DNA from: Melanopsichium pennsylvanicum
Taxonomy: Eukaryota; Basidiomycota; Ustilaginomycetes; Ustilaginales
Direction of reading: 5' to 3'
Assembly (NCBI GenBank): GCA_900208305.1
Contig: OAPG01000022.1
Coordinates: 248,001 to 312,000, forward strand
Length of the DNA stretch: 64,000 nt
The first letter of the stretch is position 1, and each line of letters begins with the position of its first letter. The notes under the pieces were generated by a model. The model had not been told where the DNA came from. It saw nothing but the letters and a program-made list of their open reading frames with translations, and did no database searches. Shown here one piece after another: positions 3,465 to 51,675 of the stretch. Position numbers and translations under genes: made by a program.

Positions 3465-4567
3465 TGTCAGGGGGCGTTGTGCCAAACTCAAGCTTCGCGC
3501 CGAGATCCGCTGAAACCGTCTGTTTTAGCGTGTTTGAGATTGAGACCTGATAAGCAGGCCGGTTCTATTGTGTTTTGCTATGAGACCTGCTGCGCAACTC
3601 TTGAGCTGACTGACCACTGTGAACACTCCGTTCAGAGGTAATGCGGCTCGTCTGTGTGTTGTAAGACCTTCACGATGCACGAGTGCTCTTGATGCAAGTG
3701 TTGGTCACCGTCAGGGACTGCTTCGGATGGTCTTGAAGCTGTCGTGATAATGAATTGGCTACGGTGGAGGTTCCGTGACCGCGGTTGAGGTTCCGCCTAC
3801 AGTTGAGGTGCTGTAGTGTCAGTGATGGTGCTGACAATCGTCGATGAAGCTTGTCTCCTTATACTGAGGAGAACACAGACACTGGATAGCTGCAATACCG
3901 TATGATTGCAGCTGCTGACGAGAACTATATACTGAGTAACTGATAACGACTTGTAAAGTAAAGACTGGGTTAATATCAAGTAGAGTGGATGAGTCCCGCT
4001 CCTCCACGACTGTAAAGACTGTGTTCTTATATACCTATGGCCCTCCAGGGGCTCCCCTTTGTCCGCTATGACCCTGGTACACCAGAGTATCAATGGCCAC
4101 CAGAGTTTCGACGTGTCCGCGAGCTTGGGCCCCGTGCTAATCAATGCCGACTGTCATCAACTATGACAACCACAAGCTTGGGCCCTGTGTTAAACAATGC
4201 TGACTGCCCTCAACTATGACAACCACGAGCTTGGGCCCCGTGTTAAACAATACCAACTGCCAGCAACCATGTCGCCCTTGAGCTTGGGCCCCGTGCTAAC
4301 CAGTGCTGGCTGTCAGCAACCATGACACACACAGCGGGCGGTAGCTTGGGCCCCGTGCTAACCAGTGCTGGCTGTCAGCAACCATGACACACACAGCGGA
4401 CGGTCCTACATCATGTTGCACCCTTCCATCAGGCCTCCTGTACCAGACGGAGGCTGTCAGAGGGCGTTGCACTGATATCGGATGAAACCACGTGTTCTAG
4501 CGGATGTCAACCTGAAACCCGATAGAACACAGTGTTTCACCGGGTTTGAAATCCACCTCCGGTAACA
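3465..4567 (-). repeat. 5' LTR of E1 (family A, ~1.1 kb)
   Basis: On the minus strand the LTR runs from TGTTACC to CCCCTGACA. Its boundaries follow from comparison with the inverted copy at 14730-15819: similarity stops at TGACA, after which this copy continues into PBS and gag and the other into flanking DNA. It holds a TATA box (TATATAAG on the minus strand, 4033-4026), an array of ~54-bp tandem repeats each beginning GGGCCCAAGCT (about 4100-4400), and copies of a 33-bp palindromic unit near both ends (3503-3535 and 4515-4547). Relative to the E3 LTR it has an extra repeat unit and lacks ~40 bp near the outer end. ORFs inside it are not genes. Confidence 0.9.
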
Positions 4568-5550: not shown

Positions 5551-5979
5551 TTAAGATGGCACAGGAGGATCGTGGGGGATAGGGATACGAGTGCCAATCG
5601 GTTCAGGCACACCACCAGCAACCGCAACACTTTCAAAAGGCTCACGTTCGGAACGGAGGTCAGCTCGGCGAGTAAGGAAATCGTAGACTGTCATAACCAG
5701 TCTACGACTAATGGTACGGTCGGCGTACCACACATTCTCCATCACTCGAAGGAACCAACGTCGATCGCGAGGATTGACGGTACGATCCCAAGACCGGATC
5801 GAGCCCAAGCCGTGCATCGAGTCGGGCGTAATCAGGTGAGCTCTCACCACGCCACGAACGCCAGGAGCCAACAGGTGTGCGGGAGCGTCACCTCGATAGA
5901 TGTGCGAAGGGTGACGAGGACTATCGCGCTCACAGTCGCGATGGTCCACCTCAGCACAACAAACACACTTACGGGAAAC
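5551..5979 (-). pseudogene. E3 antisense gene, 3' fragment (end of exon 2, left of E2)
   Basis: This is the C-terminal part of the antisense gene whose first part lies at 13616-14582. It is open in one frame from the E2 insertion point to the stop at 5551-5553. It begins with the rest of a Cys/His cluster, RKCVCCAEVDHRDCERD (C-x2-C-x4-H-x2-C), followed by a Trp- and Arg-rich segment (RSWDRTVNPRDRRWFLRVMENVWY) and a Pro-rich end. It is convergent with E3 pol, whose stop is about 300 bp away. An in-frame extension into the E2 LTR exists (to 6090) but is an accident of the insertion. I do not recognise the family. Confidence 0.65.
5975..5979. repeat. Target site duplication of E2, left copy (GAAAC)
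   Basis: The 5 bp immediately left of the E2 LTR are GAAAC, identical to 13616-13620 on the right. A 5-bp duplication is usual for Ty3/Gypsy integrases. Confidence 0.95.
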
Positions 5980-6409
5980 TGTTAAGGCTGTAGGGTCTAG
6001 ATACCGCGGGCGGCTACAGCCGGGATGGAGGCTACGGGTACGGAGAGGTCGTAGGCGGGGCGACACAGGCGGTCGGGGGTCAGAGCACACTACTGCGTTG
6101 CTATAGAGCTAACTAAGTAATACATGCGACGAGGTCCGGAGGCAACCTCATGTCAGGCGGGGGCGGGGTGGTAAGGTACAGGAACTATCGGTCACTTCCC
6201 ACCGCGGCGTTACAATGTTAGGTTGCCGACGGTCGTATCCTACGTACGGAGGGACCAGCCGCGGTTGGGCGGTAGGAGGATTGTGTCAGGCCGACCGCTC
6301 CGCTGCGAGGGGTCCGGAGAGGGTCGGTCGGGGCCCGATCACGACGATCGCTCAATCGGGAGGGGGGCCGAGCACCCCCTCTTTGGACTCCGGTTGGTAG
6401 GCACTAACA
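5980..6409 (-). repeat. 3' LTR of E2 (430 bp)
   Basis: It runs from TGTTA to TAACA as a short inverted repeat and is the same length as the copy at 13186-13615, differing from it at two CpG/TpG positions (one in the segment CCCAC[C/T]GCGG, one in GGAT[T/C]GTGTC). It contains TACATGCGAC (6121-6130), identical on the plus strand to the complement of the PBS. Confidence 0.96.
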
Positions 6410-6422
6410 TTACCCCCCGGTT
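6410..6422 (-). other. Polypurine tract of E2
   Basis: Directly upstream of the 3' LTR on the minus strand is CCGGGGGGTAA, abutting TGTTA. E3 has the related GGAAGGGGGGTAG in the same place. This would prime plus-strand DNA synthesis. Confidence 0.7.
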
Positions 6423-6643
6423 CAGGCCGACTGGTCCCCAGGCGGCTGATAGGACAGGAGGGCGAGGGGGGTCGTACTCCCTCAACCTTAATCCGCGCCA
6501 GGGGCGCCTCTCTGTACAAGTTGCGACGCTCGTCTCGGCAATTTAATCGCGGATGCGCAGCAATGAGGCAATACCACCCACAATGCCTTGGACCGGCGGA
6601 ATTGACTGTGCGCCATTGCTCGTGCGTAGCTATCGAGGAGGGA

Positions 6644-6649
6644 TATAAG
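6644..6649 (+). promoter_or_regulatory. TATA box of the E2 antisense gene
   Basis: GGATATAAGG lies about 65 bp upstream of the first ATG (6713) of the spliced antisense frame, followed by a pyrimidine-rich stretch (TTCCTTCTCG, then CCATTC and a T-run). The position fits a fungal core promoter on the plus strand, internal to E2 and independent of its LTR. Transcription here is inference. Confidence 0.5.
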
Positions 6650-6712
6650 GATGGGGTTCGACGGGTCTTCCTTCTCGATTTCCCCCATTCTTCCCCATTC
6701 TTTTTTTTCGCA

Positions 6713-8167
6713 ATGCCGTCGCCACCAGCAGACGCTTCCTTGGATTGTCTTTTTTTTGCAATGTTGTCGTCACCAGTAGACGCTCCCATGGATTCCCCGG
6801 CCGACAACCCGTCGGCCGGTGTCAGTACCGTTCCCCCTCCATTGCCTACGTCCGCGACGGCGGCAGCGTCGGCAACAGCAGCAGCAGCAACAACAACAAC
6901 AGCACCAACAACAACAACAACGTTACCCGCTTCCGGAGGTGAGTCGATCGTGGTTCCGTCGTGATTTGGTTGCGGATGGGGGCCCAGAGGGCCTGACAAC
7001 CACCGGTCGGTGCCGTGGAATGGGTTACTGACGTTTGTTCCCTCCCCCTTGTTTCGATTACGACAGATCGGCCGTCGGAGACCTCCGCTGGTCCCATCCG
7101 GGGGGTGCGCCGTTCTCCGCGTGCTCACCTTTCCCGGGGGGCCAACTCGGGCCGTCGCAAGCGCGCCGTGCGTCAACAGTCTGCCGATCCGTCGGCCATT
7201 CCTTCCTCTGCATCGACCAACACTTCCCTCGTCCTGGCGCCCCGGAATTCGATGCCGTGGTCGCGTCCTTCGGTTCCCATTGAGATCACTCCGGAACTCG
7301 TTGGTGATGGTAAGTATTTGTTCCATTGCTGTGTTGATTGGGATCGCTACTGACGTTTGTGTTTCCGTGGCCAATACGACAGACCTTGCCCCGCTATGGG
7401 CTGAGACGTGGGGCGATTGCTACGCCTGCGTATGCGCCGGCGTTGCCTGTGAGCGGGCGGGAGGCGATCTCCGCTGCCGTCGGTGTCAGGGGCACCACGG
7501 GCAACCCTGCGACGCGGATATGCGCGGTAAGTATTTCCGTCGGGCGTCTGTCGCGATGTCTTGGGTGGTCGGCTGACTCTTGTTCCTCCTTTTGTTTTCC
7601 TCGACAGTCCCACCACTTGGCGGCGCCCAAGGTCCCCTCCGAATGAGGGTTTACGCGTGCTTGCTTGAGAGGTGGAGGTCCGGAGGGGTCGGTCGGCGTC
7701 GCCGCCCCCACCCCAACGTCAGGTTGTTGCTGAGGACACTTGGCGAGATCCCGGAGGAGGAGGAGGAACTGAGGGAGGAGGTGGCTCGGGTGGGCGCGGT
7801 GGGTCGGGAGCGGGAGGCGGCTCGCAAGCGAGCTAGGTCTCGCCCCGACCGTCCAGCCGAGGCTGCCCGAGAGCGGCGCCGCACTCGGGCGCGGGCCCAA
7901 GGCCAGCCGGAGGGGTCCGCTACGGGCCTGGGGGATCTGGGTGCGGCCGTAAGGCGTGCCGAGTCCCTCTTCCACGGGGTGCAGGAGGGGACTGAGTTAT
8001 TTCAACAGGGGCTGGCCGACGTGGCTGCGCTGTTGCTGACAGAGTCGCTGAGGACCGGCGGCGAGCGAGAGCTCCGCCGGATCAGCGAGATCCAGCAACT
8101 GTCGCAGAACACGCGACAGCAGGTGGACGTGGTCTGGGCGTGGTTGGAGGGCTTCCTGAGGGACTAG
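6713..8167 (+). CDS. E2 antisense gene: four-exon Cys-rich/coiled-coil protein of unknown function
   Basis: This plus-strand gene lies opposite gag-pol, between the pol stop (8351) and the 3' LTR. Exons: 6713-6938, 7067-7309, 7383-7526, 7608-8167. The introns (128, 73 and 81 bp) have donors GTGAGT/GTAAGT/GTAAGT, CTGAC branch-like sites and ACGACAG/TCGACAG acceptors. All three are phase 1 and the joined exons total 1173 nt, giving 390 residues without a stop. The N-terminus is Ser/Pro/Ala/Thr-rich with a Thr run. Exon 3 is Cys-rich, with WGDCYACVCAGVACERA followed by CRRCQGHHGQPCDAD (CxxC pairs with His and a final Cys, likely Zn-binding). Exon 4 is Arg-rich, then charged and helical (EIPEEEEELREEVARV, a run of EREAARKRARS type, and a coiled-coil-like C-terminus ending FLRD). 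I do not recognise a family. It could bind nucleic acid, or regulate or package the element; this is not shown. Codon-level continuity across three introns is the main evidence for a real gene. Confidence 0.75.
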
Positions 8168-8350
8168 CCCCGGGGCCCCTCCTCGAATGCATTTGTTTTC
8201 TTTTCTGTCGCTTACGTGTGTGTGTGTCCGTGTGTGGGAGTGGGGGTGAGGGGAGCCCGACCGGGTCTCCTACTCCAGAGGTCGGGGACCGGAGGGGTTT
8301 TGGCTCCGGCGGGGGGGTCTCCCGACGGCGACCGTCGCTCGTATCCGTGC

Positions 8351-11300
8351 CTAACGCCGGGTAGGGGCCGGCTTGGTCGGGTTCGCGGCGTGGTACGCAG
8401 CGACCAGATCCGGGGCACGGTCCACGTCTTCCGCCGGGACCCAGCTTGGGGGGTACCCTACCCAGGAGACCTTGTACTGTAGGCGTCCGGCGCGGCGGCG
8501 GGAGTCCAATACGCCCTCGACTTCGAAATCGGCGTAGTTGTCCTCCAGAGTAGTCGGTTGGGGGGCGTCGCTGGACTCCCTGACTCCGTCGGGGTATGGC
8601 TCCAGCATCTGTACGTGAAAGACGGGATGGACCTTCCACGACGGAGGCAGGAGGAGTCGGTAGGCTCGGTTGCTAATCACCTCGTTGACTTTGAACGGGC
8701 CGGCGAGGGGGTTGGAGAGCTTGTGGGAGGGTCGGTCGCTGCGGAGGTGCTTGGTACGGAGGAGCACCAGGTCCCCCCGGCGGAACAAGACGTCGCTCCT
8801 GCAACGGTTAAACCACTTCGCGACGGCAAGGTTGGCTTTGGCGATGGCGTCCTGGCACACCCGCACTTTATCCGCCGACGGAACGTTGGAGGTGGCCGGG
8901 GGGATGGAGGGGTGTGCCCGAGGTGCAAATGTGAAGCAAGCTATAGCCGGGGCGATGGTTGTGGTCGCCGACGGTCTTTGGTTCAGCGCGAGCTGGGCTG
9001 TCGGCAGGAGGGTTGCCCAGTCGCTGTGGTCGTAGGCCGTATAGAAGCGGAGGAACAACTCCAGCGTCTGGTTGGCTCGCTCGGTCTGGCCATTTGTTTG
9101 AGGGTGGTAGGCCGACGAGTAAGACCCTTTAATCCGGAGGGCCCGGAGGAGTTCCGTCCAAACGGAAGCTACAAACGTGGTTCCTCGGTCAGATACAATG
9201 GTGTCCGGGAGGCCAAAGTATGAAAAGACGTAGCGGTGGAGCTGGTACGCCAAAGTCTCCGCCGTATCGGTTTTGTTTGCAGGAATGAAGACCACAAACT
9301 TGGTGAGGCGGTCGACGACTACGAAAATGGAGTTGTAGGTGGTGCCGTTGGCAAGGGAGGGCGGGAGGTCAGTGATGTGGTCCATGGTAATAGTGGACCA
9401 GGGCCGATCGGGAGGGACCGACGGGAGAAGGTAGCCGTGGGGTTTGTGACGGGGGTGTTTTGCCCTTCGGCAGGCCGCGCAAGAGGCGACATAGCTGTTG
9501 GTGTCCTGCACCATGGTTGGCCAGTAAAAACGTTGACGCATGAGATGGAGGGTCGTCTTGCGGCCAGGATGTCCCGCCGTAGGGTGGTCGTGCAGTAGGT
9601 GGAGTGCCTTGTCCCGTAATTGGGGTGGCAGGTAGACGTGACCCTCTGTGGTGTACGGGACACCATCGCGGACGGCAACGTTTGGGGGGAGGTTGGCCGC
9701 TTTCCGGAGGGTTTCGATCCACTCCGTAGGCAGGGGGTCCGAGGAGTGTACGCCGGCTGCCCTTGCAAACAAGTTTGCAGGGAGGAGAGTGGCTTGGTTG
9801 GCGGGGTCTGGGCGCGACGGTCCGTCGGGGAACAAGTCGTGCCGGCGACTCAGAGCGTCGGGGCGGACGGCCTCCTTACCCGGACGGTAGTGGAGGACGA
9901 AGTCGAACTCAGCCAGGTCGGCTTGCCAGCGGGCTTGGCGACGGTTGAGTTGTCGCTTCGTCTGAAAATACTGGAGCGCCTGGTGGTCGGTGTAAATGAG
10001 GAACGGTCGGGTGAGGCCATGGAGGTAGTGTCTCCAAGCGCCGCAGGCGTCTACAATAGCCAGGAGTTCCTTGTCGTGGATTTCGTAGTTACGCTCCGCC
10101 GGGATCATCTTTCGCGACCAGTATGCCACAGGATGGAGGGTATGCGAGCGGCTGTTGGGCTCGGCGCTCGCTTCGGCGCCCGGCTGTGGGTGCCACTGCG
10201 ACAGCACGGCGGCTACCACAGCGTCGCTCGCGTCTGTTTCGACGACGGTGTAGAGCGTTGGAGAGAAGTGCCGGAGGATAGGGGCAGAGGTGAACGCTTC
10301 TTTCAGCCGGTTGAAGGCTGCCGTTGCTTCCGGGGGCAGATCTACCTTTCCGGAGGCTCCTCCTTTCAGGAGGTTGGTGAGGGGGGCCGCTACACGAGAA
10401 TAGTGGCGGATGAAGCGACGGTAGAAGTTGGCGAATCCGAGGAAGACTTGGATCTGTCGGATCGACTGTGGTGGCGGCCACTCCAAGACTGTACTGACCT
10501 TGGTTGGGTCCATGGAGAGGCCGTTGGGACTGACGAGGTAGCCGAGGAACTCGACGGAGTTGGTGTGGAATTTGCATTTGTCCGGAGCGCAATACAGCTG
10601 ATGCTTCCGTAATCGATCCAACACTTGGCAGACGTGGTGGTGGTGGTCGGCCTTGTTGTCGGAGAAGACTAGGATGTCGTCCAGATATACGATGACGGAC
10701 ACGTCTAAGAGATCCAACAGCACGTGGTTCATGAGCCGTTGGAAGGTCGCCGGAGCGTTGCAGAGGCCAAACGGCATGACGAGGTATTTGTAGCTGCCGT
10801 AGCGCGTGCGGAATGCGGTCTTCCATTTGTGGCCGGGGGCGATCCGGAGGAGGTTGTAGGCACCCTTCAGGTCAAATTTAGTGAAGATCTTGGCCGTCGC
10901 CAGCCGATCAAGGTGTTCGGAGATGAGGGGGATCGGGTAGCGATCCTTGACGGTGATGGCGTTGAGGGCGCGGTAGTCCACACACGGCCGGAGGCGACCG
11001 TCCTTCTTTGGTACAAAAAGAAGGGGCGCGGCAGCTTGGCTACTCGACGGTCGGATGAAGCCAATGGCCTGCATCTTCCGGAGGTAGTTCCGGAGCTCCT
11101 CTTGTTCGCGGTGCGACAGGGAGTAGAGTGCGCCGTAGGGAGGGGTTTTGCCAGCCTCCAGGTTGATCTCGTGGTCGTGTGGGCGGTGGGGAGGCAATTG
11201 GTCGGCCCTCTCGGCGTCGAAGACGTCGGCGTACTCGCGGTACTCTGGCGGTAGGACGGCGAGGTCGGTCGCGGAAGCTCGGAGGGGCAGTAGCTCCTCT

Positions 11301-11914
11301 TCCGGTTCTGGGAGGACCAGCAGGTCCTCCTCAGTGGAGACCAGCTGTCGCCGGCCGACCAAGTTGTGGAGTTCGTTCTTTTCGATTTTGGGGTTGGAGG
11401 GCACCGTGACGGTGTGGGGGACCCGGAGGTCCCACGTACGGAGGGTATAGTTTGGCTCCGGCCTGGCGGCCTCGATCCAATCCATTCCCAACAGCACGTC
11501 GTGGGAGGTCATGGGGGTGATGAAGAGTCGGTGGCGTGAGGTGATGCAGTGGTTGTTGATGATGATATCCACCGCCGCGTGGCGACTGATGGCGGCCGAC
11601 ATGCCCTGGAGGAATGTGGCGTGGACGGATTTACGGAGGGAGTGGGTAGGAATGTTGGCCGTTGCGACCATTTCGGGAGTAATGAAAGAAGCGGTGGCGC
11701 CGGTATCGAGCAAGGCAAGGCCTTGCGTGTCGCCGACGCTTACCAAGCATTCGTAGGTTGGTAAGGTAGGGTGTCGATGGATCCGGAGAACGGATCCCTC
11801 TTGCTCCACGACGGGAGTGTCGGTCCGGTGGGCTGCCCAGAATGCTGCGGCGAGCACCCGGAGCTGGCTTAGGTTGTCGATGGGTTCGGACCGAAGGAAC
11901 CCATCGACCCTTAG
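8351..11914 (-). CDS. pol: Pol polyprotein of E2 (protease, RT, RNase H, integrase, chromodomain)
   Basis: The frame runs 1187 codons from the frameshift site to the stop; the first codon after the slip is at 11914 and there is no ATG near the start, so it is probably made only as Gag-Pol. Domains in order: protease LLDTGATASFI (about residue 70 of the pol part); RT with VDYRALNAITVKDRYPIPLI, FDLKGAYNLLRI, MPFGLCNAPATFQRLM and VIVYLDDILVFS (about 400); RNase H with VETDASDAVVAAVLSQ and YTDHQAL; integrase HHCC (HPTAGHPGRKTTLH ... CAACRRAKH) and the catalytic residues in TMDHITDLP, VSDRGTTF and NGQTERANQTLE; and a C-terminal chromodomain (ADFEVEGVLDSRRRAGRLQY, then KVSWVGYPPSWVPAED). All catalytic residues I looked for are present, so it appears functional. 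Confidence 0.96.
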   Translation of the reverse strand, partial: LRVDGFLRSEPIDNLSQLRVLAAAFWAAHRTDTPVVEQEGSVLRIHRHPTLPTYECLVSVGDTQGLALLDTGATASFITPEMVATANIPTHSLRKSVHATFLQGMSAAISRHAAVDIIINNHCITSRHRLFITPMTSHDVLLGMDWIEAARPEPNYTLRTWDLRVPHTVTVPSNPKIEKNELHNLVGRRQLVSTEEDLLVLPEPEEELLPLRASATDLAVLPPEYREYADVFDAERADQLPPHRPHDHEINLEAGKTPPYGALYSLSHREQEELRNYLRKMQAIGFIRPSSSQAAAPLLFVPKKDGRLRPCVDYRALNAITVKDRYPIPLISEHLDRLATAKIFTKFDLKGAYNLLRIAPGHKWKTAFRTRYGSYKYLVMPFGLCNAPATFQRLMNHVLLDLLDVSVIVYLDDILVFSDNKADHHHHVCQVLDRLRKHQLYCAPDKCKFHTNSVEFLGYLVSPNGLSMDPTKVSTVLEWPPPQSIRQIQVFLGFANFYRRFIRHYSRVAAPLTNLLKGGASGKVDLPPEATAAFNRLKEAFTSAPILRHFSPTLYTVVETDASDAVVAAVLSQWHPQPGAEASAEPNSRSHTLHPVAYWSRKMIPAERNYEIHDKELLAIVDACGAWRHYLHGLTRPFLIYTDHQALQYFQTKRQLNRRQARWQADLAEFDFVLHYRPGKEAVRPDALSRRHDLFPDGPSRPDPANQATLLPANLFARAAGVHSSDPLPTEWIETLRKAANLPPNVAVRDGVPYTTEGHVYLPPQLRDKALHLLHDHPTAGHPGRKTTLHLMRQRFYWPTMVQDTNSYVASCAACRRAKHPRHKPHGYLLPSVPPDRPWSTITMDHITDLPPSLANGTTYNSIFVVVDRLTKFVVFIPANKTDTAETLAYQLHRYVFSYFGLPDTIVSDRGTTFVASVWTELLRALRIKGSYSSAYHPQTNGQTERANQTLELFLRFYTAYDHSDWATLLPTAQLALNQRPSATTTIAPAIACFTFAPRAHPSIPPATSNVPSADKVRVCQDAIAKANLAVAKWFNRCRSDVLFRRGDLVLLRTKHLRSDRPSHKLSNPLAGPFKVNEVISNRAYRLLLPPSWKVHPVFHVQMLEPYPDGVRESSDAPQPTTLEDNYADFEVEGVLDSRRRAGRLQYKVSWVGYPPSWVPAEDVDRAPDLVAAYHAANPTKPAPTRR

Positions 11915-11920
11915 TTTCCC
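11876..11920 (-). promoter_or_regulatory. -1 ribosomal frameshift signal at the E2 gag-pol junction
   Basis: The last gag codons are GAG GGA AAC TAA, so the canonical slippery heptamer G GGA AAC (11920-11914) abuts the gag stop. After a 5-nt spacer there is a perfect 12-bp stem, GTCGATGGGTTC (11908-11897) pairing with GAACCCATCGAC (11887-11876), with the 9-nt loop CTTCGGTCC. Pol is in the -1 frame and open from here. Heptamer, spacer and stem match known -1 frameshift sites; GGGAAAC is an established slippery sequence. Confidence 0.88.
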
Positions 11921-13146
11921 TCCGGGGGATCCTCCGAATCCGATAGGTCACTGTCGGGGTTGGAGGCTGACCCGTCATCCATGGGGTTGACGAGTATAGT
12001 CCCGGAATCGTTGTCGAATGAAATAGCATGTGCCCGGAGAGTTTGTGTTTGGGGTGCCTTCGGGCAGTCACGGGCCAAATGGTCGCTGCCACCGCAGCCA
12101 AAGCACTGCCCGTTGGTCCGTCGGTGCTGGCGGAGGCGTTCCGCCGCATCACGCGTAGGGTCCTTGGCCGGTAGTGGAGGTCGTTCCATTTTGCGGGGTC
12201 CCTCCGGAGGCTCTCGTTTGGCCGTCACGGCTGGGAGGGGCGGTCGGTGTCGCAGCTGTGACTCCGAGGGTCTTGTCGTGGCCTCCTGTATCACCTGCAT
12301 CCGGCGCTCCGTGACAATGGCGGCGTTGATGAAGTCACGGATGTCGGTCATCGGCACGTGGGTGAGCTTTTCCCGTAGGCGCGGCCGGAGGCTTTGTTTG
12401 AACAGCATCAACGCCTGCTGCTGGTCGGTCAGGTGCGATTTGGCCGTCAGCGACATGAACTCCGCCGCGTGCTCCGATACCGATCCCTTCTGGCGGAGGG
12501 CATTCAGTTGGAGGCGTGCGGTGTAGCTGGGGTCGGGATCGCCATGGACGCAACGGAGGTCGGCGCAAAAGGCCCTCCAGGAGCTCATCCAGGGCGGATC
12601 CTCCCCCTCCTGTTGTCGCACATTGCGAATGCGGGTTTGTGGTTTGCCCGTCATGTTGCCGATGGCAAACATGATGCGACGGGCATCCGTCGGAAACTTG
12701 GAGGGATTAGCCTCGAAGTTGAGTTCGCATTGATCCAAGAAGTCCTCCAGTTTGTCTTGGCTGCCGTCCCATTCCGGAGCCTGGAGTCGAATCTCTGGCT
12801 CGCGGGGCGCGGCCTCCACGTAGACGGGGGCTACGGTTGGCGGGGGGACCTGGGCAGCGGTTGCTCCTTGGTAGTGCTGGGAAGACTCCGGTCTAGGTTG
12901 ATCCTCCCTGGGGAAGAAGGCGGCCTCTAGCAGAGCGGTAATGCGCCGCTGTTGTTCAGAGGTTTCACGCAGAAGCGCCAGGATATCCACTTGCCCTTGG
13001 ACCAAGGTGGTCAGGGCGGCGGGCGGTTCGCCCGAGGGTGCAACAACGCTGGCGGGCTCGTCTCCGCTGGGGGAGATGGTGGGGGCGTCTCCCTCCGCTT
13101 GAGGGGGGGCGTCCGTTTGGTTTCGTCGGTTGGAGCGTGTACTCAT
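11911..13146 (-). CDS. gag: Gag polyprotein of E2
   Basis: The product has 411 residues from the first ATG after the LTR (13146, MSTRSNRRNQTD). The open frame extends upstream into the LTR to 13296 but without need. There is an acidic/Pro-rich N-terminus, a central retrotransposon Gag capsid region (WDGSQDKLEDFLDQCELNFE ... WMSSWRAFCADLRCVHGDPD ... NALRQKGSVSEHAAEFMSL), a basic linker and one CCHC knuckle CFGCGGSDHLARDC (C-x2-C-x4-H-x4-C), then an acidic end. It ends in TAA directly after the slippery heptamer. Confidence 0.94.
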   Translation of the reverse strand: MSTRSNRRNQTDAPPQAEGDAPTISPSGDEPASVVAPSGEPPAALTTLVQGQVDILALLRETSEQQRRITALLEAAFFPREDQPRPESSQHYQGATAAQVPPPTVAPVYVEAAPREPEIRLQAPEWDGSQDKLEDFLDQCELNFEANPSKFPTDARRIMFAIGNMTGKPQTRIRNVRQQEGEDPPWMSSWRAFCADLRCVHGDPDPSYTARLQLNALRQKGSVSEHAAEFMSLTAKSHLTDQQQALMLFKQSLRPRLREKLTHVPMTDIRDFINAAIVTERRMQVIQEATTRPSESQLRHRPPLPAVTAKREPPEGPRKMERPPLPAKDPTRDAAERLRQHRRTNGQCFGCGGSDHLARDCPKAPQTQTLRAHAISFDNDSGTILVNPMDDGSASNPDSDLSDSEDPPEGN

Positions 13147-13174
13147 CTTGGTTACGACGTTGTCCCGTGGGGAG

Positions 13175-13184
13175 GTCGCATGTA
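13175..13184 (-). other. Self-complementary primer binding site of E2
   Basis: One base inside the 5' LTR edge the minus strand reads TACATGCGAC. The LTR transcript strand contains the exact complement GTCGCATGTA (plus coordinates 13327-13336 and 6121-6130). The offset of one base and the length of 10 nt are the same as in E1. This suggests Tf1-like self-priming rather than a tRNA primer. Confidence 0.7.
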
Positions 13185-13185
13185 A

Positions 13186-13615
13186 TGTTAAGGCTGTAGG
13201 GTCTAGATACCGCGGGCGGCTACAGCCGGGATGGAGGCTACGGGTACGGAGAGGTCGTAGGCGGGGCGACACAGGCGGTCGGGGGTCAGAGCACACTACT
13301 GCGTTGCTATAGAGCTAACTAAGTAATACATGCGACGAGGTCCGGAGGCAACCTCATGTCAGGCGGGGGCGGGGTGGTAAGGTACAGGAACTATCGGTCA
13401 CTTCCCACTGCGGCGTTACAATGTTAGGTTGCCGACGGTCGTATCCTACGTACGGAGGGACCAGCCGCGGTTGGGCGGTAGGAGGATCGTGTCAGGCCGA
13501 CCGCTCCGCTGCGAGGGGTCCGGAGAGGGTCGGTCGGGGCCCGATCACGACGATCGCTCAATCGGGAGGGGGGCCGAGCACCCCCTCTTTGGACTCCGGT
13601 TGGTAGGCACTAACA
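13186..13615 (-). repeat. 5' LTR of E2 (430 bp)
   Basis: The termini are TGTTA and TAACA and the copy matches 5980-6409 at 428 of 430 positions by eye. No strong TATA box is evident on the minus strand. The flank on the right is the target duplication GAAAC (13616-13620). Confidence 0.96.
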
Positions 13616-14582
13616 GAAACACGACCCCGTGGAGCGGTGGGGTCGGCAAACGTCGAAGGAAAGCAACTACAAATCAAAGTAAGGAAGCGGAGTCAGTTGG
13701 GGTTACAATAGCGATGAGAGGTCAATAAACTACTTACGGAATGTCGAGCCGCGCACAAGGCAAACAAGTCCAAGTCGGCCACGGGGCACTGCCTTCGGTA
13801 AGTCTTGACAGCACGTTGAGTTTCATACGTGCCGGAAGTTCCCAAGTGGCCGGTACATCCCATTCGTCAGGCCAGAATCGTCGTGCCACCATACAGACCA
13901 GTACCACCGGCAACAAGGTGTTGCACCAATCCAAAATATTGTGCTGATTGGGCACGTAACGCTCTTGTCGAGGTGGCGGTGTAGGGGTTCGGGCAGGAGG
14001 TGGTGTCACCCGCGAAGGTTCAGGCGAGATTGCTGAGGCTGGATTAGCCCTAGCATTGCGCAAATACGCATCCGACACCACCGAGGCCGACCTAGGCCTG
14101 AAACCGAGAAGGAAATCGTCCACCACATCGTCTGGGTCCAAAATTGGGGACGGTGTAATGCTGCGGGCCAGTTTGCGGGCCCAACGAGCATCGCGCTCAG
14201 GAGTAGTTTTGACGGCAGAATCCACGAGAGGAGAGGCCGGTGGGGAGACGTAGCGAAATAAAGGTTCTCCCACTGGATGGGAGACCGCTTGAGTTTCGCC
14301 AGATAAGTTGAGTAGAGGCGCTGAACGGTGCGCCGGGCTAAGCGCCAACGAAACCAGGCCAACGGCCGCGTCCGATGTCAGACAATGCTCGTTGGCAAGC
14401 ACAGCCGGGTCCAGTACCATATCGTTGGAAGGGGTACACTCACCCGAGAGGTTTGGAGTTCCGGCACAGCGGCAAGGAGGCATCGAACGAGCAGAAGGCA
14501 TGGACATCGAACAAAGAACCGCAACACGGCTGGCCACGCAAGCAGAACGTCGAGTTGGAGCGGCAGCGGCGGAACGAGGCAT
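13616..14582 (-). pseudogene. E3 antisense gene, 5' fragment (exon 1, intron, start of exon 2), interrupted by E2
   Basis: Exon 1 runs from the ATG at 14582 (an in-frame ATG at 14693 would add 37 residues) to 13738. The intron is 13737-13667 (71 bp: donor GTAAGTA, CTGACT branch site, acceptor TTTGTAG); exon 2 starts at 13666 and is cut by E2 at 13616. The join is in frame and continues in the same frame in 5974-5551, giving about 439 codons in all. The protein is Ser/Pro-rich with an acidic patch DDVVDDFLLGF, a PPP-rich stretch, a hydrophobic segment (NTLLPVVLVCMVARRFWP) and then a Cys cluster beginning WPTWTCLPCARLDI. The layout resembles the E2 antisense gene. The family is unknown to me, and the gene is broken by E2. 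Confidence 0.65.
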
Positions 14583-14715
14583 ATTGTATGGTGGCGATAT
14601 AGGAATAGATGAGGAAGACCATTGCAAAAGAAGAGTTGTACACCAAGGATAAAGGCTGGTAGAAGCTAAGTTCTCTGCGCCGCCGGACTTCATTACCTCG
14701 CAGGAGCTCGGTTCT

Positions 14716-14729: not shown

Positions 14730-15819
14730 TGTTACCGGAGGTGGATTTCAAACCCGGTGAAACACTGTGTTCTATCGGGTTTCAGTTTGACGTCTGCTAG
14801 AACACGTGGTTTCATCCGATATCAGTGCGACGCCCGCTGGACGCAGGTATCAACCAGCAGAGGAAACACAGGGCACTAAGGATGACACAAGGCCTCCGTC
14901 TGGTACAGGAGGCCTGATGGAAGGGTGCAACATGATGTAGGACCGTCCGCTGTGTGTGTCATGGTTGCTGACAGCCAGCACTGGTTAGCACAGGGCCCAA
15001 GCTCAAGGGCGACATGGTTGCTGGCAGTTGGTATTGTTTAACACGGGGCCCAAGCTCGTGGTTGTCATAGTTGAGGGCAGTCGGCATTGTTTAACACAGG
15101 GCCCAAGCTCGTGGTTGTCATAGTTGATGACAGTCGGCATTGATTAGCACGGGGCCCAAGCTCGCGGACACGTCGAAACTCTGGTGGCCATTGATACTCT
15201 GGTGTACCAGGGTCATAGCGGACAAAGGGGAGCCCCTGGAGGGCCATAGGTATATAAGAACACAGTCTTTACAGTCGTGGAGGAGCGGGACTCATCCACT
15301 CTACTTTATATTAACCCAGTCTTTACTTTACAAGTCGTTATCAGTTACTCAGTATATAGTTCTCGTCAGCAGCTGCAATCATACGGTATTGCAGCTATCC
15401 AGTGTCTGTGTTCTCCTCAGTATAAGGAGACAAGCTTCATCGACGATTGTCAGCACCATCACTGACACTACAGCACCTCAACTGTAGGCGGAACCTCAAC
15501 CGCGGTCACGGAACCTCCACCGTAGCCAATTCATTATCACGACAGCTTCAAGACCATCCGAAGCAGTCCCTGACGGTGACCAACACTTGCATCAAGAGCA
15601 CTCGTGCATCGTGAAGGTCTTACAACACACAGACGAGCCGCATTACCTCTGAACGGAGTGTTCACAGTGGTCAGTCAGCTCAAGAGTCGCGCAGCAGGTC
15701 TCATAGCAAAACACGATAGAACCAGCCTGCTTATCAGGTCTCAATCTCAAACACGCTAAAACAGACGGTTTCAGCGGATCTCGGCGCGAAGCTTGAGTTT
15801 GGCACAACGCCCCCTGACA
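14730..15819 (+). repeat. 3' LTR of E3 (family A, 1090 bp)
   Basis: It is the inverted counterpart of 3465-4567, from TGTTACC to CCCCTGACA. It contains palindromic units near the start (about 14752-14786) and end (15754-15776), three to four ~54-bp tandem repeats each starting GGGCCCAAGCT (about 14995-15160), and a TATA box TATATAAG at 15251-15258. The stretch ATCCACTCTA (15294-15303) pairs with the E1 PBS. ORFs of 60-115 codons inside it are shared with the E1 LTR only because the LTRs are near-identical. Confidence 0.9.
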
Positions 15820-43646: not shown

Positions 43647-44887
43647 CTACAATTGACGAACGTAAGCAGTAGGAATGATGCCTTGCCTGGATTGATCTTG
43701 AGACATACCTCTCCACCAATCCTCAGAAATCTTTTCAACAAGATAAATCATTTCACCTTCATTCGCATCAAGGTCATCAGCATCCATACCATCACCATAA
43801 CTATGAAACCCCCACATTCAGATAAAAATTGCAAAATGGTAAAAACGTTAGCCTCAAAACCTTGTATCAGACCCCTGACCATGTCGCCCAAGAAAGAAAA
43901 TTTTTAGAAAAATGAAAAGCTCAAAGGTGGGAAAAGTCGAAAAAAAGATAATATATATGATGATGATGATAAGGATGAACTTACTCGTACAATACTGTAG
44001 CAGATCCAATCACTCCTTCTGGCAATACAGGATGGGTTACTACTGCTGAGGGGACACTTGCACCACTTCTTGTTGGTGGGGGTAATGTCCTTGTTGCTGC
44101 TGGTGTTTTTGTTGTTGATGTTGTTTGAGGGATTGAATTGTTCGAAACTGTCCTTGATCCGAGATGAAGCGATCCCAGCGTCTGTGATACAGGATTATGT
44201 CCGTTAGTTAAGCAAACAGTCAGAAAAACATCAGTGAGTCAATCGAGAGTCTACACCTTGTTTTCGCTACACAAGCTTATCCTTTGACTAAAGGGGTACA
44301 GCAGAGCGAAAGAGGGACGTGCATGTACGTGTGTATTTGTTGGGTGCAAGAGAGATGATTTACCTTCTGACTCACCAACCCAGCCGGACCACCGCTACCA
44401 CCACCGCCAAAAGATTCAGGTTTACTTCTGCTACTAGAGACAGGAGGAGCAGGAGGAGTACCTTTATTCGATATACCTGTCCTTGCGAATTGATCTCTCA
44501 AAGCATTCGAAACGGCTGCATTGGCTGCTACTCCCGCGGCATTCCCTGCTGCTGCTGTAGCTCTATCCGTGAGTCCTACTCTTGTCAAAGGTGTCCCTGC
44601 CTGTGTTGTGGTGGTTGTTGTCGAAGACGATGCTCCAGCGTTAGCAAGACGATGTGGTCGTGATTCAAAATACTCGTCAAGCAATTTGAAAAACGCTTGC
44701 TTTTCCGACGTTGGTAGATTTATCATCATCTTCTTGTTCGAGTGACGCACGACTAAACCATCAATGATCTTGTATTTACTACAACTCTTCAGGATTTCAA
44801 AAACGTGCGGTTTGTCTTCAGCAGTTGAAACGCTTTCGAGTGCCTCGATTCCAAGATCTGCACTGATGCTAGAGAGCAAGTGCACAC
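43647..44887 (-). CDS. SH3-domain protein, N-terminal exon unresolved
   Basis: Three exons can be joined: 44887-44365, 44181-43985, 43800-43647. Introns: donor GTAAAT with acceptor ATCACAG (phase 0), and donor GTAAGT with acceptor TTTCATAG (phase 2). The last two exons build an SH3 domain: SATVLYDYGDGMDADDLDA, GEMIYLVEKISEDWWRG, GIIPTAYVRQL (with ALYDY-, WW- and P..Y-type positions). The first visible exon has an ordered N-terminal part (LGIEALESVSTAEDKPHVFE, YKIIDGLVVRHSNKKMMINL) and then a Ser/Thr/Gly/Pro-rich linker. The exon opens at an acceptor-like TGATAG and needs an upstream exon ending in phase 1, which I could not place. SH3 proteins of this type usually act in actin patches or endocytosis; the exact family is not recognised. 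Confidence 0.7.
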
Positions 44888-45342: not shown

Positions 45343-46908
45343 TCATTTTTTGTTCTCCTTCTTTTCCTTCTTGTCTTTCTTATCCTTCTTGGCCTCCTTG
45401 GAAGCCTTCTTGGCCGCCTTTTCCACATCCTTCTTCTTGTCCTTGTCGCTGGATTTCGACTTTGACTTTTTCTCCTTCTTTTCCTTCTTGTCCTTCTTGG
45501 AATCAGCTGGATCTGTGACACCAACTGCAGCAGGCATGTGTTGTTTCTGCTCCTTTTGATCATCATCATCATCATCTGCATCCTCATCCATCAAATCGCC
45601 TGCAGCCTCCTCAATGGCCTTGATCGCCTTGCTCATGGCATCCGAGTTCTTGCTCGGAGCCTTACCCGTCTCGTAGAATGCAAGACGCTCTTCGACCTGA
45701 ACCGCAAGCACCTCACCGAACTTGGTGGTAGGTGTTTCGCTGAAGCAGTCGATTCTGGAAGCGATCGAAATCTTGTTGGCCAAGAATCGCGACATGCGAC
45801 CTTTGTTCTTGGGTGCAGCACGAGCAATGGCCGAAGCATGATAGATGAGACCGTACTTGGGTGTGTTGCCCTTGGTCTTGAGTGCGCGGAAAAGCGCCTT
45901 TTCGGCACCGAGGATCTGAACCGTGGAAGCGGGGTACTTTGCGAGGTTGGTCAACGAACCGGCGTGACTGATGAGACGAGCACCGATGATCTCACCCAAA
46001 AGAGCGGAAAGGTTGGGTGCAACGAGGTGCATCTTTTCGATGAGGTACTTGTGCATGTTTTTTCTGTACTCTCCAAGGCTGATGACCCTATCGGCAAAGT
46101 TGAGGATGTTGTGCATGTCCAACTCTCCGATTTCCTGACCCATGGAAGCACGTGCAGCGTCGAGAATGTTTTTGGCCATGGTTTCGTCACCAGAGAGAAT
46201 GTCGGTCATGGCGTCGACGTCGTCTTCCGAGAGACGTTCCTTGTTGCGGATGAATTTGGCGAGTTTTGCGTAGGTGAGGTTGTCGGTGGTAAGCTTGACG
46301 AGTTCGGGGAAGTGCCAACCATACCACTCGCGAACACGCATGGCAAAGGTGTTGACGTCTTTGTCGAGGGTGTCGAGGAGGGCGATGGCCTGAATGATCA
46401 TGTTGTCGGATCGGTTGACGTTGAACTTGACTTTGGATCGAGAGTACGAGTGACCGAGACCAAGCTGGGCCTTTGCAAGATCACCGTCAGCCATACCCTT
46501 TAGGAGCTTCTCAGCATGCTGACGAACACCACGGATGAGTTCGAGCGAGGTTTCACCAGTATCACATGGAATACCGAGCTCACCAACGATGGAGGAGGCA
46601 AGATTGCGGTCCTGAACACCAAGGACGATGCTCTTCTTCTTACCAGATGAGAGGTTGAGAGTGAGAAGAGACTTGAGGTAGTCATTGACGACACCTTCTG
46701 ATATGTCCAATGAGGCCTGTAGAGCATCGAGCGCGTTCTTGAATGGCGAGAAGGAAAGGAGCTTGACCATCTTGCCAAAAGTGTTGACCTCGTTGACGCT
46801 CTCCTGAACGGCACGGGTGAGAGAGCCGATCTGCTCAACGGCAGCAACCTCAAATACGGCACATCCTGTAGCGCACTCAAAGAGGATGTGAGTAGGTGCG
46901 GACGACAT
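45343..46908 (-). CDS. NOP56: Nucleolar protein NOP56 (box C/D snoRNP core)
   Basis: Single exon, 521 residues. NOP56 is a core protein of box C/D snoRNPs, which guide rRNA 2'-O-methylation. The N-terminal domain opens HILFECATGCAVFEV, typical of NOP56 rather than NOP58. Then come the coiled coil, LIRGVRQHAEKLLKGM, GLGHSYSRSKVKFNVNRSDN, AMRVREWYGWHFPELVKL, and the NOP domain GARLISHAGSLTNLAKYPAS, VQILGAEKALFRALKT, PKYGLIYHASAIARA, KNKGRMSRFLANKISIASRID. The C-terminus is an acidic run followed by a long KKD/E-rich tail (residues ~470-521), the usual nucleolar tail. Divergent from the proteasome alpha1 gene. Confidence 0.95.
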   Translation of the reverse strand: MSSAPTHILFECATGCAVFEVAAVEQIGSLTRAVQESVNEVNTFGKMVKLLSFSPFKNALDALQASLDISEGVVNDYLKSLLTLNLSSGKKKSIVLGVQDRNLASSIVGELGIPCDTGETSLELIRGVRQHAEKLLKGMADGDLAKAQLGLGHSYSRSKVKFNVNRSDNMIIQAIALLDTLDKDVNTFAMRVREWYGWHFPELVKLTTDNLTYAKLAKFIRNKERLSEDDVDAMTDILSGDETMAKNILDAARASMGQEIGELDMHNILNFADRVISLGEYRKNMHKYLIEKMHLVAPNLSALLGEIIGARLISHAGSLTNLAKYPASTVQILGAEKALFRALKTKGNTPKYGLIYHASAIARAAPKNKGRMSRFLANKISIASRIDCFSETPTTKFGEVLAVQVEERLAFYETGKAPSKNSDAMSKAIKAIEEAAGDLMDEDADDDDDDQKEQKQHMPAAVGVTDPADSKKDKKEKKEKKSKSKSSDKDKKKDVEKAAKKASKEAKKDKKDKKEKKENKK

Positions 46909-47878
46909 GGTGGCGATAATGTGGACGGTAGCCTGTCAAGAAGCTGATCGGTTGGAGGAAACTCGAAAGGGAGAAGAAAAGAAAAAAGGGAGTGCTGTAC
47001 ACTTGGCGATGGTGGTGGGATCACAAAGCACGAGCTGTGATGTATGGAAAAGCGTCTGTGACGATACGAGACGCTTCGAGCCTGAAATCGGATATGCAAA
47101 AAGGTGTGGTGCAGATAAGCTTGTAGAGAAAGAAGGGATGGCGAGATGGAATGTCAAATGCTGACGGCGACGACTAAGGCTTGGATTTTTTTTTTCTTTT
47201 TTCTTTTTTACAAGAGCAAATCCCAAGAAGCTAAAAAAAATCAAAAAATCAAGATTTCAGTCCGAGTCTTTTTTTTTTCATTTTTTTATTTTCATTGCAG
47301 TTTCTGTCTCCCTTCTCTGTTCTCGATTGCGGCCATCCAAGCCAGAGGCGAAAATCGACATGAAACAACAAATTGCTTTAAATCACGTGTTACCCAACAG
47401 ATGAGCTTATCGGGTTGATTTTGGTCAGATTATCGGCGATATTTGTATGGCGGAATCTAATCAAGAAAATGAAATACGCAGAGCTTGGTGATCGAGTGAA
47501 ATTAGCTTGTGTGCTGATGAGCTGCCTGAGTTTTGCAATCCAAATTATACGCATTTCGTAGCGCAAAGCTCAAACAAAAACGCTCAGACCCTCGCTCGCG
47601 TCGTCAGTGCAGCCACAAAGGCTTTTGGAAGCGTCGTTGATTGTTTCACACTGATTCATTCACGATCGTATGGCCAACAATGTCACTTTGCCAATCCACT
47701 TAAACTGTATCGCGTATTAGTTTATCATCATCTCCATCTCATCTTTCTTACTCGCAGATCACCATTATTCACTCTTAGACTCATCACTCCATCCTCAGCG
47801 TCAGCCTCTTTCTTCAGCTGCAGCGCAAAACACACCGTCAATCACTCCCATCAACACCATATCACGAGTGCCACCACA
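46909..47878. promoter_or_regulatory. Divergent intergenic region NOP56 / proteasome alpha1
   Basis: 970 bp between start codons, with T-runs at about 47186-47212 and 47270-47287. A longer open frame upstream of alpha1 (from 47507) is just an in-frame extension; the family start is at 47879. No specific proteasome-control element was recognised. Confidence 0.4.
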
Positions 47879-49484: not shown

Positions 49485-51059
49485 TTAATGTGCCTCCCTT
49501 CTTCTAGGAGCAGATTTTAAAATATCATCCACTCTCAAAATCATCTCTGCTGCCTCTGTTGCACTCAAAACCACCTGTCTTTTCAACTTGTACGATTCCC
49601 TAACCGCCTTATGCCTCATATCAGTCACTTTACCCAAATCCAAATCCAAACCAGCATACTTATCCCCATTTTGATGTGCTGCACGAAGTTGTGCAACCAA
49701 TTCACTTGAATCCAAACCTGCATTATCTGCCAAAATGGTAGGTAATTGTCGAAGCGCCTTTGCAAAACTTTCGGTTGCAATCGCTTTTTTACCAGAAGTC
49801 ATACGTGCCGCTTGATCTACCACTTTTGACATTGACATTTCAGCACATCCACCTCCAAATAAAACCCTGGTTTCAACTACAGTTTGTGAAAGTACACAAA
49901 GTGCATCATGCAAAGATCTCTCCGCTTCATCCAACATCTGACTAGTAGCTCCTCGAAGTACAACAGTACATGCTTCACCTGCTGCAACACCAGAAAATTT
50001 AATCAATTTATCTTCCCCAATCATAACCTCCGAAATTTTACCACATTCTCCTATCTTTACCAAATCAGGTCGATCAAATGTACTAGCAATCTCACCTCCA
50101 GTTACCAACGCAAGTCGTTCGATTCCTTCGAAATCCGCATGTTCAATCGACATGATTCCTGCTTCGGCCAAAAGTGATTCAGGATAGTTGTAAATCAATT
50201 GACGATTGACGAAACACGTGATACCGTGCGCCTTGATCTTTTCCACTTTGGCTTTCATCTTTTCTCGTTCGGCACGTTCAAGTTGAGCCAATTCAGCCGT
50301 ACCTTGTACACGAACACGTGCACCAAAAACTTTGATCTTATCCGTATCCATCGAAGTGTTGGCAATCAAAATTTTGGGATTGTTCAACACCTTTGGAGAA
50401 TTGGTACCGATTTTTTTGTTGAGAATGAAACCTTCGTCGAGGTAAGAATCGGTCAATTTTCCACCTGGTTTTTTGATGATTTGAATATGTTCCAAATTCG
50501 TACTACCTTTAAGTCGAAGTACAGCTTCGACGGCAAGGTTTGCGAAATAATCCTTATCAGTACTGAGAACTTTCGAACTCAAAGTAGTCCTAGCAATGTT
50601 AAGCAAATCCATCCTGAAACTGGCTTCATCCTTTGCATGATCTTCAGCAGTATCTTCAAGTGCTTTAAGAGCTGCGGTGGAAGCGATACGATAACCTTGA
50701 ACGATGGTTTGAGGATGAATACGCATTTCGATCAACTTTTCTGCCTCCCGAAGCAATTCAGCAGCTAGAACACAGACTGAAGTGGTACCATCACCAACCT
50801 CGTCATCCTGAACTTTAGAAATGTTGACAAGGATCTTGGCAGCAGCATTATCGAGGTGAATGGATTTGAGAATGGTGGCACCATCGTTGGTGACGACGAT
50901 ATCATTCGAACCGACGGATTGCAGAATCTTGTTCATTCCTTTGGGTCCCAATGTGGTTTTGACAAGATCGCCAAGAGCTACAGCACCGACAAACGACGAA
51001 AGACGTGCATTTTCAGCTCGTTCCTGCGTGGCGTCTTGGGCAAAGATGGGTGCCGACAT
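49485..51059 (-). CDS. CCT2: T-complex protein 1 subunit beta (CCT2 chaperonin)
   Basis: Single exon, 524 residues, the normal length. It is one of eight subunits of the cytosolic TRiC/CCT chaperonin that folds actin and tubulin. The family start is [20 protein letters not shown] (beta-specific), with the ATP-site motifs [24 protein letters not shown] and VGDGTTSV, the apical part with [19 protein letters not shown], and the C-terminal [11 protein letters not shown] and [12 protein letters not shown] followed by [17 protein letters not shown]. All the ATPase elements expected are present. Codon choice in this gene is more AT-rich than in CPS or CTR9. Confidence 0.95.
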
Positions 51060-51675
51060 TGTATTATTATCGTTATTATTTGCCCTATGCTGAGGTTATG
51101 ATGAAAGATGCAAGCGCGTTGACGTGAGGAGGATGATTGTGGTGATGATGATGATGATGATGTTGTTGTTGTTGTTCTGAACCGTACTGTATTGTAGTTT
51201 TAGTTCAGGAATTGGTGTAGAAGGTGTCGAGAAGGAAAGTGAGAGTCAATATAAGAAATCAAAGTGGTGTGTGTTGTGTATGCGCGCGGATCAAAGACCA
51301 AAAAGAAGGGACACTTCTGCTGTAGACAAGACAGAGAGAGAGAGAGAGAGTGTGTGTGTGTGAGTGTAAAAGTGAGTGTTGGATTTCAAGTGATTGCAAA
51401 AGAAGCGCACTATTCTATTCAAACGCGTCCTTTTCTTCCAACTCTCTCTCTCTCTTTTTCAATAGAAAGCACAAGAGGAAGAAGCCAGAAGAACAAATTT
51501 TGTGCTTTGACTCTCTCTGCACGTCGCACGTATCTCGATTTGTTTTGTTAAATTGTTAAATTAATAAAAACACCTGGTCACTAAAATGTGGTTTGAGTCG
51601 AGCACTCTTTTGGTGATCGGCCTTCCTTGTCGCCCTGGATCTTGCTTTTCATATGGTTGCACAAATGCATGATCA

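Follow-up and report, generated by a model that had tools for sequence, protein, structure and literature searches.

HBZ of HTLV-1, which is spliced and encodes a bZIP protein, and the antisense genes found between pol and the 3' LTR of fungal and plant retrotransposons are the described systems closest to the locus reported here. In Boty of Botrytis, the antisense gene brtn was reported by Zhao et al. (2011), as passages of later papers citing that work have it (PMC7264820, PMC8365987, PMC4227169), and the gag-pol of Boty is given a CHROMO domain in one of them (PMC4227169). Passages of PMC7264820 place brtn between pol and the 3' LTR, a position in which plant elements carry antisense genes as well, describe the antisense gene of Grande as having a promoter of its own upstream and as encoding a protein located in the nucleus, and locate the antisense promoter of HTLV inside the 3' LTR; that paper ends with a call to examine antisense and spliced transcripts. 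For Retand, 97% of the clusters are described in PMC11963269 as having antisense frames that carry the TRP28 domain, for which DNA binding is predicted. Neither PMC7264820 nor PMC11963269 contains the word intron, and the word antisense is absent from the main texts of two further papers, one surveying fungal LTR elements (PMC3248453) and the other on Tcn1-like chromoviruses (PMC2864245). In the literature that was covered, mostly as open-access titles, abstract openings and passages (PMC12810828 included), no fungal Gypsy element was reported to have an antisense gene with introns. The preliminary description of the present locus knew of no described spliced antisense gene in fungal chromoviruses; its hint that antisense genes are undescribed there does not hold in view of brtn as the citing passages portray it. 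Antisense genes in fungal Gypsy elements are, thus, already known, and the gene analyzed here is an intron-bearing variant.

The window, by which we mean the whole stretch of 64,000 nucleotides that was analyzed, contains a minus-strand Ty3/Gypsy chromodomain element (E2) with open gag and pol frames. Its two LTRs of 430 bp each have 2 mismatches at 430 sites and a GAAAC target duplication flanks it; judged by these features, E2 is a complete young element, in agreement with the preliminary description. A Pfam search indicated the pol order protease, RT, RNase H and integrase with a C-terminal chromodomain (Chromo, PF00385; 30.6 bits against a cut-off of 25.1), which is the arrangement of a chromovirus. 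The insertion of E2 interrupts an older element of family A1, referred to as A1-long. In the interval that separates the pol stop from the 3' LTR, the plus strand, opposite gag-pol, carries a frame of four exons, which is placed and oriented as an antisense additional gene of LTR elements is at this site. When read from ATG 6713 to the TAG ending at 8167 with the three introns removed, it encodes 390 residues, and every intron is in phase 1, exactly as had been proposed. The coordinates are collected in Table 1.

Table 1. Features of E2, of its antisense gene and of the interrupted A1-long element (positions in the window)
Feature	Positions	Strand	Remarks
3' LTR of E2	5980..6409	-	TGTTA...TAACA; 430 bp, 2 mismatches to the other LTR; GAAAC flank
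5' LTR of E2	13186..13615	-	from comparison of the LTR pair and GAAAC target duplication
pol open frame	8351..11947	-	1198 aa stop to stop; Pfam protease, RT, RNase H, integrase, chromodomain
gag open frame	11911..13314	-	467 aa stop to stop; Ty3 capsid-like; zinc knuckle just below cut-off
TATAAG box of antisense gene	6644..6649	+	69 bp before ATG 6713
Tandem duplication of about 50 bp	6701..6750	+	with extra in-frame ATG 6713; missing from 14/37 copies
Exon 1	6713..6938	+	low-complexity, trinucleotide repeat; codon-level constraint not seen; family-wide start probably ATG 6761
Intron 1	6939..7066	+	CTGAC at 7028; donor GT 36/37, acceptor CAG 37/37
Exon 2	7067..7309	+	basic stretch GRRKRAVR, NLS-like by eye
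Intron 2	7310..7382	+	CTGAC at 7350; donor GT 37/37, acceptor CAG 37/37
Exon 3	7383..7526	+	contains six-cysteine array
Six-cysteine array	7418..7510	+	C-x2-C-x6-C-x8-C-x2-C-x7-C; in exon 3
Intron 3	7527..7607	+	CTGAC at 7573; donor GT 37/37, acceptor CAG 37/37
Exon 4	7608..8167	+	basic, mostly helical in low-confidence model; TAG 8165-8167
A1-long antisense gene, 5' part	13621..14582	-	exon 1 14582-13738, intron 13737-13667, then start of exon 2
A1-long antisense gene, remainder of exon 2	5551..5979	-	across E2 from the 5' part

The splice signals were as the preliminary description had them: the donors are GTGAGT, GTAAGT and GTAAGT, all three acceptors are CAG, and CTGAC begins 33-39 nt ahead of the end of each intron. 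Intron 2 has an alternative in-frame donor at 7304, the use of which would give a product of 388 residues. The TATAAG box, which had been placed 65 bp upstream of the start, was found at a distance of 69 bp, about 235 bp beyond the 3' LTR (box 6644, LTR end 6409). Only part of the claim on the start stood. ATG 6713 does open the frame in this copy, but it lies in a duplication present in 23 of the 37 copies aligned, and the start shared by 36 of them is ATG 6761, which gives 374 residues in E2; the family-wide start is, therefore, probably ATG 6761, to judge from the alignment, and not 6713.

At least 44 matches to the antisense region were obtained in the genome. The 37 long ones, among them that of the window, were aligned, and seven short fragments were left out; the copy numbers are lower bounds, as scoring covered the best candidates. 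Each of the three introns occurs in 37/37 aligned copies, with CTGAC kept at every branch position, and the TATA stretch GGATATAAGG is identical in 36/36 copies holding that stretch, L043 being without it. The start, frame and splice sites are jointly intact in 32 of the 37, among which L043 was scored despite the missing TATA stretch; the other five are broken by a 5-bp deletion (L023), loss of a donor (L026), a stop (L031), loss of the start (L034) and truncation (L044). The conservation of exon frame and splice sites that the preliminary description had proposed to look for across the copies of this family (family B) is, thus, what we found. Pol was uninterrupted in 10 of the 21 copies read over pol (9 of 20 long loci and the window), and the antisense frame was intact in nine of these 10, the exception being L023. 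The broken frame of L023 beside an intact pol is of the kind that had been named as counting against the gene, and the outcome among copies with intact pol is mostly favorable. L045 belongs to the same family as E2 and is an internally deleted copy. As a separate observation, two copies of the family lie in opposite orientation at about 510-524 kb of contig C8 (genome G000) with fragments of the antisense gene between them, forming a palindrome-like array.

Coding constraint was examined at the codon positions on the tree of the copies. L044, L043 and L023 were excluded from this analysis, from the nearest-neighbor and the 16 vs 8 clade comparisons of pN/pS and from the non-coding rates, and L044 and L023 from the counts of singletons and near-fixed differences. 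With CpG columns kept, the changes were spread flatly over positions 1, 2 and 3 (132/112/130, p = 0.38). Because CpG columns in the exons change 0.85 steps per site, a CpG filter was applied, which was adopted post hoc, after this flat first result. Outside CpG columns, the steps per site in exons 2-4 of 34 copies were 0.084 for codon position 1, 0.071 for position 2 and 0.241 for position 3 (p = 1.3e-7), and the result was retained with two looser CpG definitions (still p = 2.6e-6). The introns outside CpG columns gave 0.225, 0.169 and 0.238 steps per site. Third codon positions of exons 2-4 evolve at the pace of the introns, and positions 1 and 2 about three times more slowly. Within exon 2, the fastest sites are those of genomic phase 0, and within exons 3-4 those of phase 1, which is the prediction of the spliced frame. 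Exon 1 outside CpG columns had 0.353, 0.167 and 0.206 at positions 1, 2 and 3, the opposite pattern, if any.

Comparison between clades (16 vs 8 copies) resulted in a pN/pS of 0.55 for the antisense frame, with 0.37 for exon 4 and 1.09 for exon 1, and in 0.87 and 1.18 for shifted frames; in a matched clade subset (9 vs 3 copies), the antisense value was 0.57 and that of RT 0.31. Over 17 nearest-neighbor pairs, pN/pS was 0.74, no lower than in the five other frames (0.69-0.98), and for nine copies belonging to the commonest clade it was 1.01, compared with 0.39 for RT. Near-fixed differences between clades numbered only five (three non-synonymous, two synonymous). Among singletons, 41/95 were synonymous in the true frame, compared with 25/95 and 22/96 in shifted frames. 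Indel lengths were multiples of three in 7/8 events in exons and 0/4 in introns (p = 0.010), a count that omits the 381-nt end truncation of L044 and a 48-53-nt duplication upstream of ATG 6761; five of the seven such exon indels sit in a CAG/CAA repeat at 6875-6925, without which the Fisher p is 0.14, and the test is weak because steps of three are expected in a trinucleotide repeat anyway. The constraint for which the preliminary description had proposed a dN/dS test is, thus, clear at codon positions without CpG columns but vanishes with them kept. With 32 of 37 copies intact and a codon-phase constraint that follows the spliced frame outside CpG columns, this is more than a chance frame, and the antisense frame of E2 is, on the evidence of the aligned copies, very probably a real spliced coding gene.

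The product matches no Pfam domain, Zn_clus and bZIP included, in the Pfam search of the E2 antisense protein. All six cysteines of the exon 3 array are invariant in 23/23 distinct exon-3 protein variants, and its spacing was reproduced by 0/200,000 shuffles of the protein. It fits the Zn(II)2Cys6 pattern of fungal regulators, C-x2-C-x6-C-x5-12-C-x2-C-x6-8-C, and the basic residues are not placed where GAL4 has them. In the 21.1-Mb genome, 67 Zn(II)2Cys6 matches exceed the Pfam cut-off, which marks it as fungal; in contrast to these regulators, the E2 protein has no Zn_clus profile match and the loop in the A1 and A2 proteins described below has 18-20 residues, and an A2 protein scored 7.7 bits against Zn_clus, the cut-off being 21. 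The array is probably metal-binding. The TRP28 domain (PF04195) had no Pfam match in the E2 protein at E<=1 or in the A2 protein and pieces of the E2 protein at E<=10. Structure models were of low confidence (pLDDT 61 for the exon 3 piece, where a two-helix zinc fold would be expected of a Zn(II)2Cys6 cluster, and 50 for the exon 4 piece), and a search of solved structures gave three weak matches (E 0.044-0.49). One further occurrence of the cysteine spacing in the six frames of the window, at 44517, lies opposite a host frame and was judged to be due to chance.

An RT search revealed a second group of elements with 58-60% identity to E2, consisting of two kinds, A1 and A2. In A2, as read in copies L049-L051, the same slot holds a two-exon antisense gene (349 residues in L051) with an intron of 71-88 nt that has GTAAGT, CTGAC and CAG, and TTAAATA is located about 67 bp before its start in L051. 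The antisense gene of A1-long is homologous to that of A2, with a 71-nt intron at the same place and the acceptor TAG, and separate pieces found in further A1-long copies are 36-40% identical to the A2 protein. In the conserved part, L049 and L051 differ by 40 synonymous and 27 non-synonymous changes (dN 0.057, dS 0.264; binomial p = 1.7e-8). Between A2 copies, the dN/dS of the antisense gene was 0.2-0.3 and that of control frames 0.92-2.75, except for the reverse frame sharing third positions (0.46), which in the closest pair had the same value as the true frame (0.29). Between A1 and A2, pN/pS was 0.61-0.64 with synonymous sites almost saturated. L049 has one in-frame stop, and 22 of the 32 full-range matches to A2 exon 2 are without any. 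The same cysteine array occurs in A2 and A1 with loops of 20 and 18 residues, respectively, the A1 reading spanning the E2 insertion; a profile comparison of the E2 and A proteins was not significant (hhalign P = 0.38), and the cysteine spacing alone is common to them. In two further families, no antisense gene was evident among the frames listed in the stretches between pol and the 3' side (L054, L056), in elements whose ends are unmapped. As observations on the A elements themselves, the N-terminal part of the antisense gene is almost the same in L049 and L051, and the C-terminal part of L051 is close to that of L050, which suggests that A2 copies have recombined with one another, and the LTR of the A1 element has 53-62-bp tandem repeats at 4117-4404 and 14952-15167, where the alignment differs between copies.

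A sibling group of A1-long, A1-short, is without the antisense gene and is represented by at least 19 full-length junction matches at 99-100% identity, compared with at least 6 A1-long copies, as counted in the best 40 of 85 candidates scored. It is the antisense region that distinguishes the two, and about 20 bp of sequence are shared at the junction (5568-5587 and 14588-14607 in the window). Because the gene is common to A1-long and A2, we infer that it was lost in A1-short; because A1-short copies have been amplified without it, the gene is not essential in cis. It is a tentative and rather doubtful proposal that an intron-bearing antisense zinc-cluster gene, a trans regulator equivalent to HBZ, was present in the ancestor of a fungal chromovirus lineage, that it survives in divergent form in A1, A2 and B and that its loss released the amplification of A1-short.

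Taken together, a probable mechanism is that antisense transcription starts from the gene's own TATA promoter just internal to the 3' LTR and proceeds towards pol, and that the antisense RNA is spliced by the host at the three introns. The product of 374-390 residues would have a low-complexity N-terminus, the probably metal-binding six-cysteine array and a basic, probably helical C-terminus, and it would go back to the nucleus and act in trans on the LTRs or integration of the element, at DNA or chromatin, in the manner of HBZ and of the plant aORFs. We infer transcription, splicing, translation, metal and DNA binding, and regulation, the action being read from the array, the basic stretches and the analogy. 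The introns would persist because the sense RNA is copied into DNA, and in that RNA they are not introns. The data suggest that such an accessory protein serves the elements themselves. The explanation as a whole, i.e., an accessory gene with its own promoter, host splicing and a putative nuclear regulator as its product, is in our judgment slightly favored, and the chance that the protein is a trans regulator that binds DNA or chromatin in the nucleus, as suggested by analogy, seems about even.

With respect to the compared systems, Boty-like elements of Botrytis and Sclerotinia are, as portrayed in the passages cited above, likewise fungal chromodomain Gypsy elements whose antisense gene sits between pol and the 3' LTR; for the E2 gene, the present data document three introns, the cysteine array and a constraint that extends over many copies. 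Among the plant elements with an antisense aORF, Grande (GENE23), RIRE2 and Retand (TRP28) were compared, and Retand is assigned to a non-chromovirus lineage in PMC11963269, unlike E2, and carries the domain for which the E2 and A2 proteins have no match. HBZ, an antisense, spliced, nuclear regulator, is the working analogy for the E2 gene, where the likeness is at the level of sequence; unlike the antisense promoter of HTLV, the TATA box of E2 is located outside the 3' LTR, and a bZIP match is absent.

Other explanations of the frame have to be weighed against an accessory gene with a regulatory product. A chance frame, or one that truly belongs to the sense strand, would agree with the small signal of the codon tests when CpG columns are kept and with a sense-strand frame that is open over 6352-7419 in the E2 copy, but no sense frame is open over 6761-7419 in 30 of the 37 copies, at least 36 of the 37 have stops in every sense frame of exon 4, and the phase of the fastest sites shifts across intron 2, so that we consider this almost certainly wrong. 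It is also highly improbable that the antisense RNA alone matters, by RNA interference or transcriptional interference, and the frame is incidental: non-coding antisense RNAs are known from other retroelements, according to passages of PMC7264820, but here the codon-phase constraint tracks the spliced frame and the splice sites are conserved. Nor does cargo captured from the host and of no use to the element, to which exon 1 with its lack of codon constraint would conform, account well for the constraint in exons 2-4 of E2 and in the A2 gene; in addition, a free-standing host paralogue was not noticed in a cursory reading of the matches listed, and we regard such cargo as very unlikely.

Two readings assign the protein a specific role towards silencing or copy number. 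VANC proteins counter silencing for VANDAL transposons, and the E2 protein could similarly bind the element's own DNA and counter host methylation or heterochromatin. Over 6413-8367 of the aligned copies, non-coding CpG columns change 0.81-1.36 steps per site compared with 0.14-0.24 for the other non-coding columns, which suggests methylation and deamination of these elements and would be expected if the host methylates them, and E2 has a chromodomain; however, the CpG decay is strong in the gene-carrying copies themselves, so that any protection would be incomplete, and no Pfam match to any known family was obtained, which leaves this reading unlikely. On the other hand, p22 restrains Ty1 retrotransposition, and the protein or the antisense transcript of E2 could restrain its own family likewise. 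The abundance of A1-short relative to A1-long would be in line with this, but it is a single comparison in which A1-long or A2 may complement A1-short in trans, and copies abound likewise in family B (at least 37 long ones), where the gene is retained; we, therefore, consider self-restraint quite unlikely.

An accessory gene with a regulatory product is, thus, the reading that we retain. In E2, a retrotransposon gene seems to have kept three introns spliceable over repeated rounds of copying via RNA, and their location on the other strand is what makes this possible. With more than 30 intact copies, an antisense gene in the same slot of related families and an amplified sibling group without the gene, it would be a good test case for the antisense accessory genes of LTR retrotransposons. 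Elsewhere in the window, two long host frames on the minus strand, at 45343-46935 and 49485-51095, have the look of a Nop56/Nop58-type protein and a CCT chaperonin subunit, as judged by eye from the translations.
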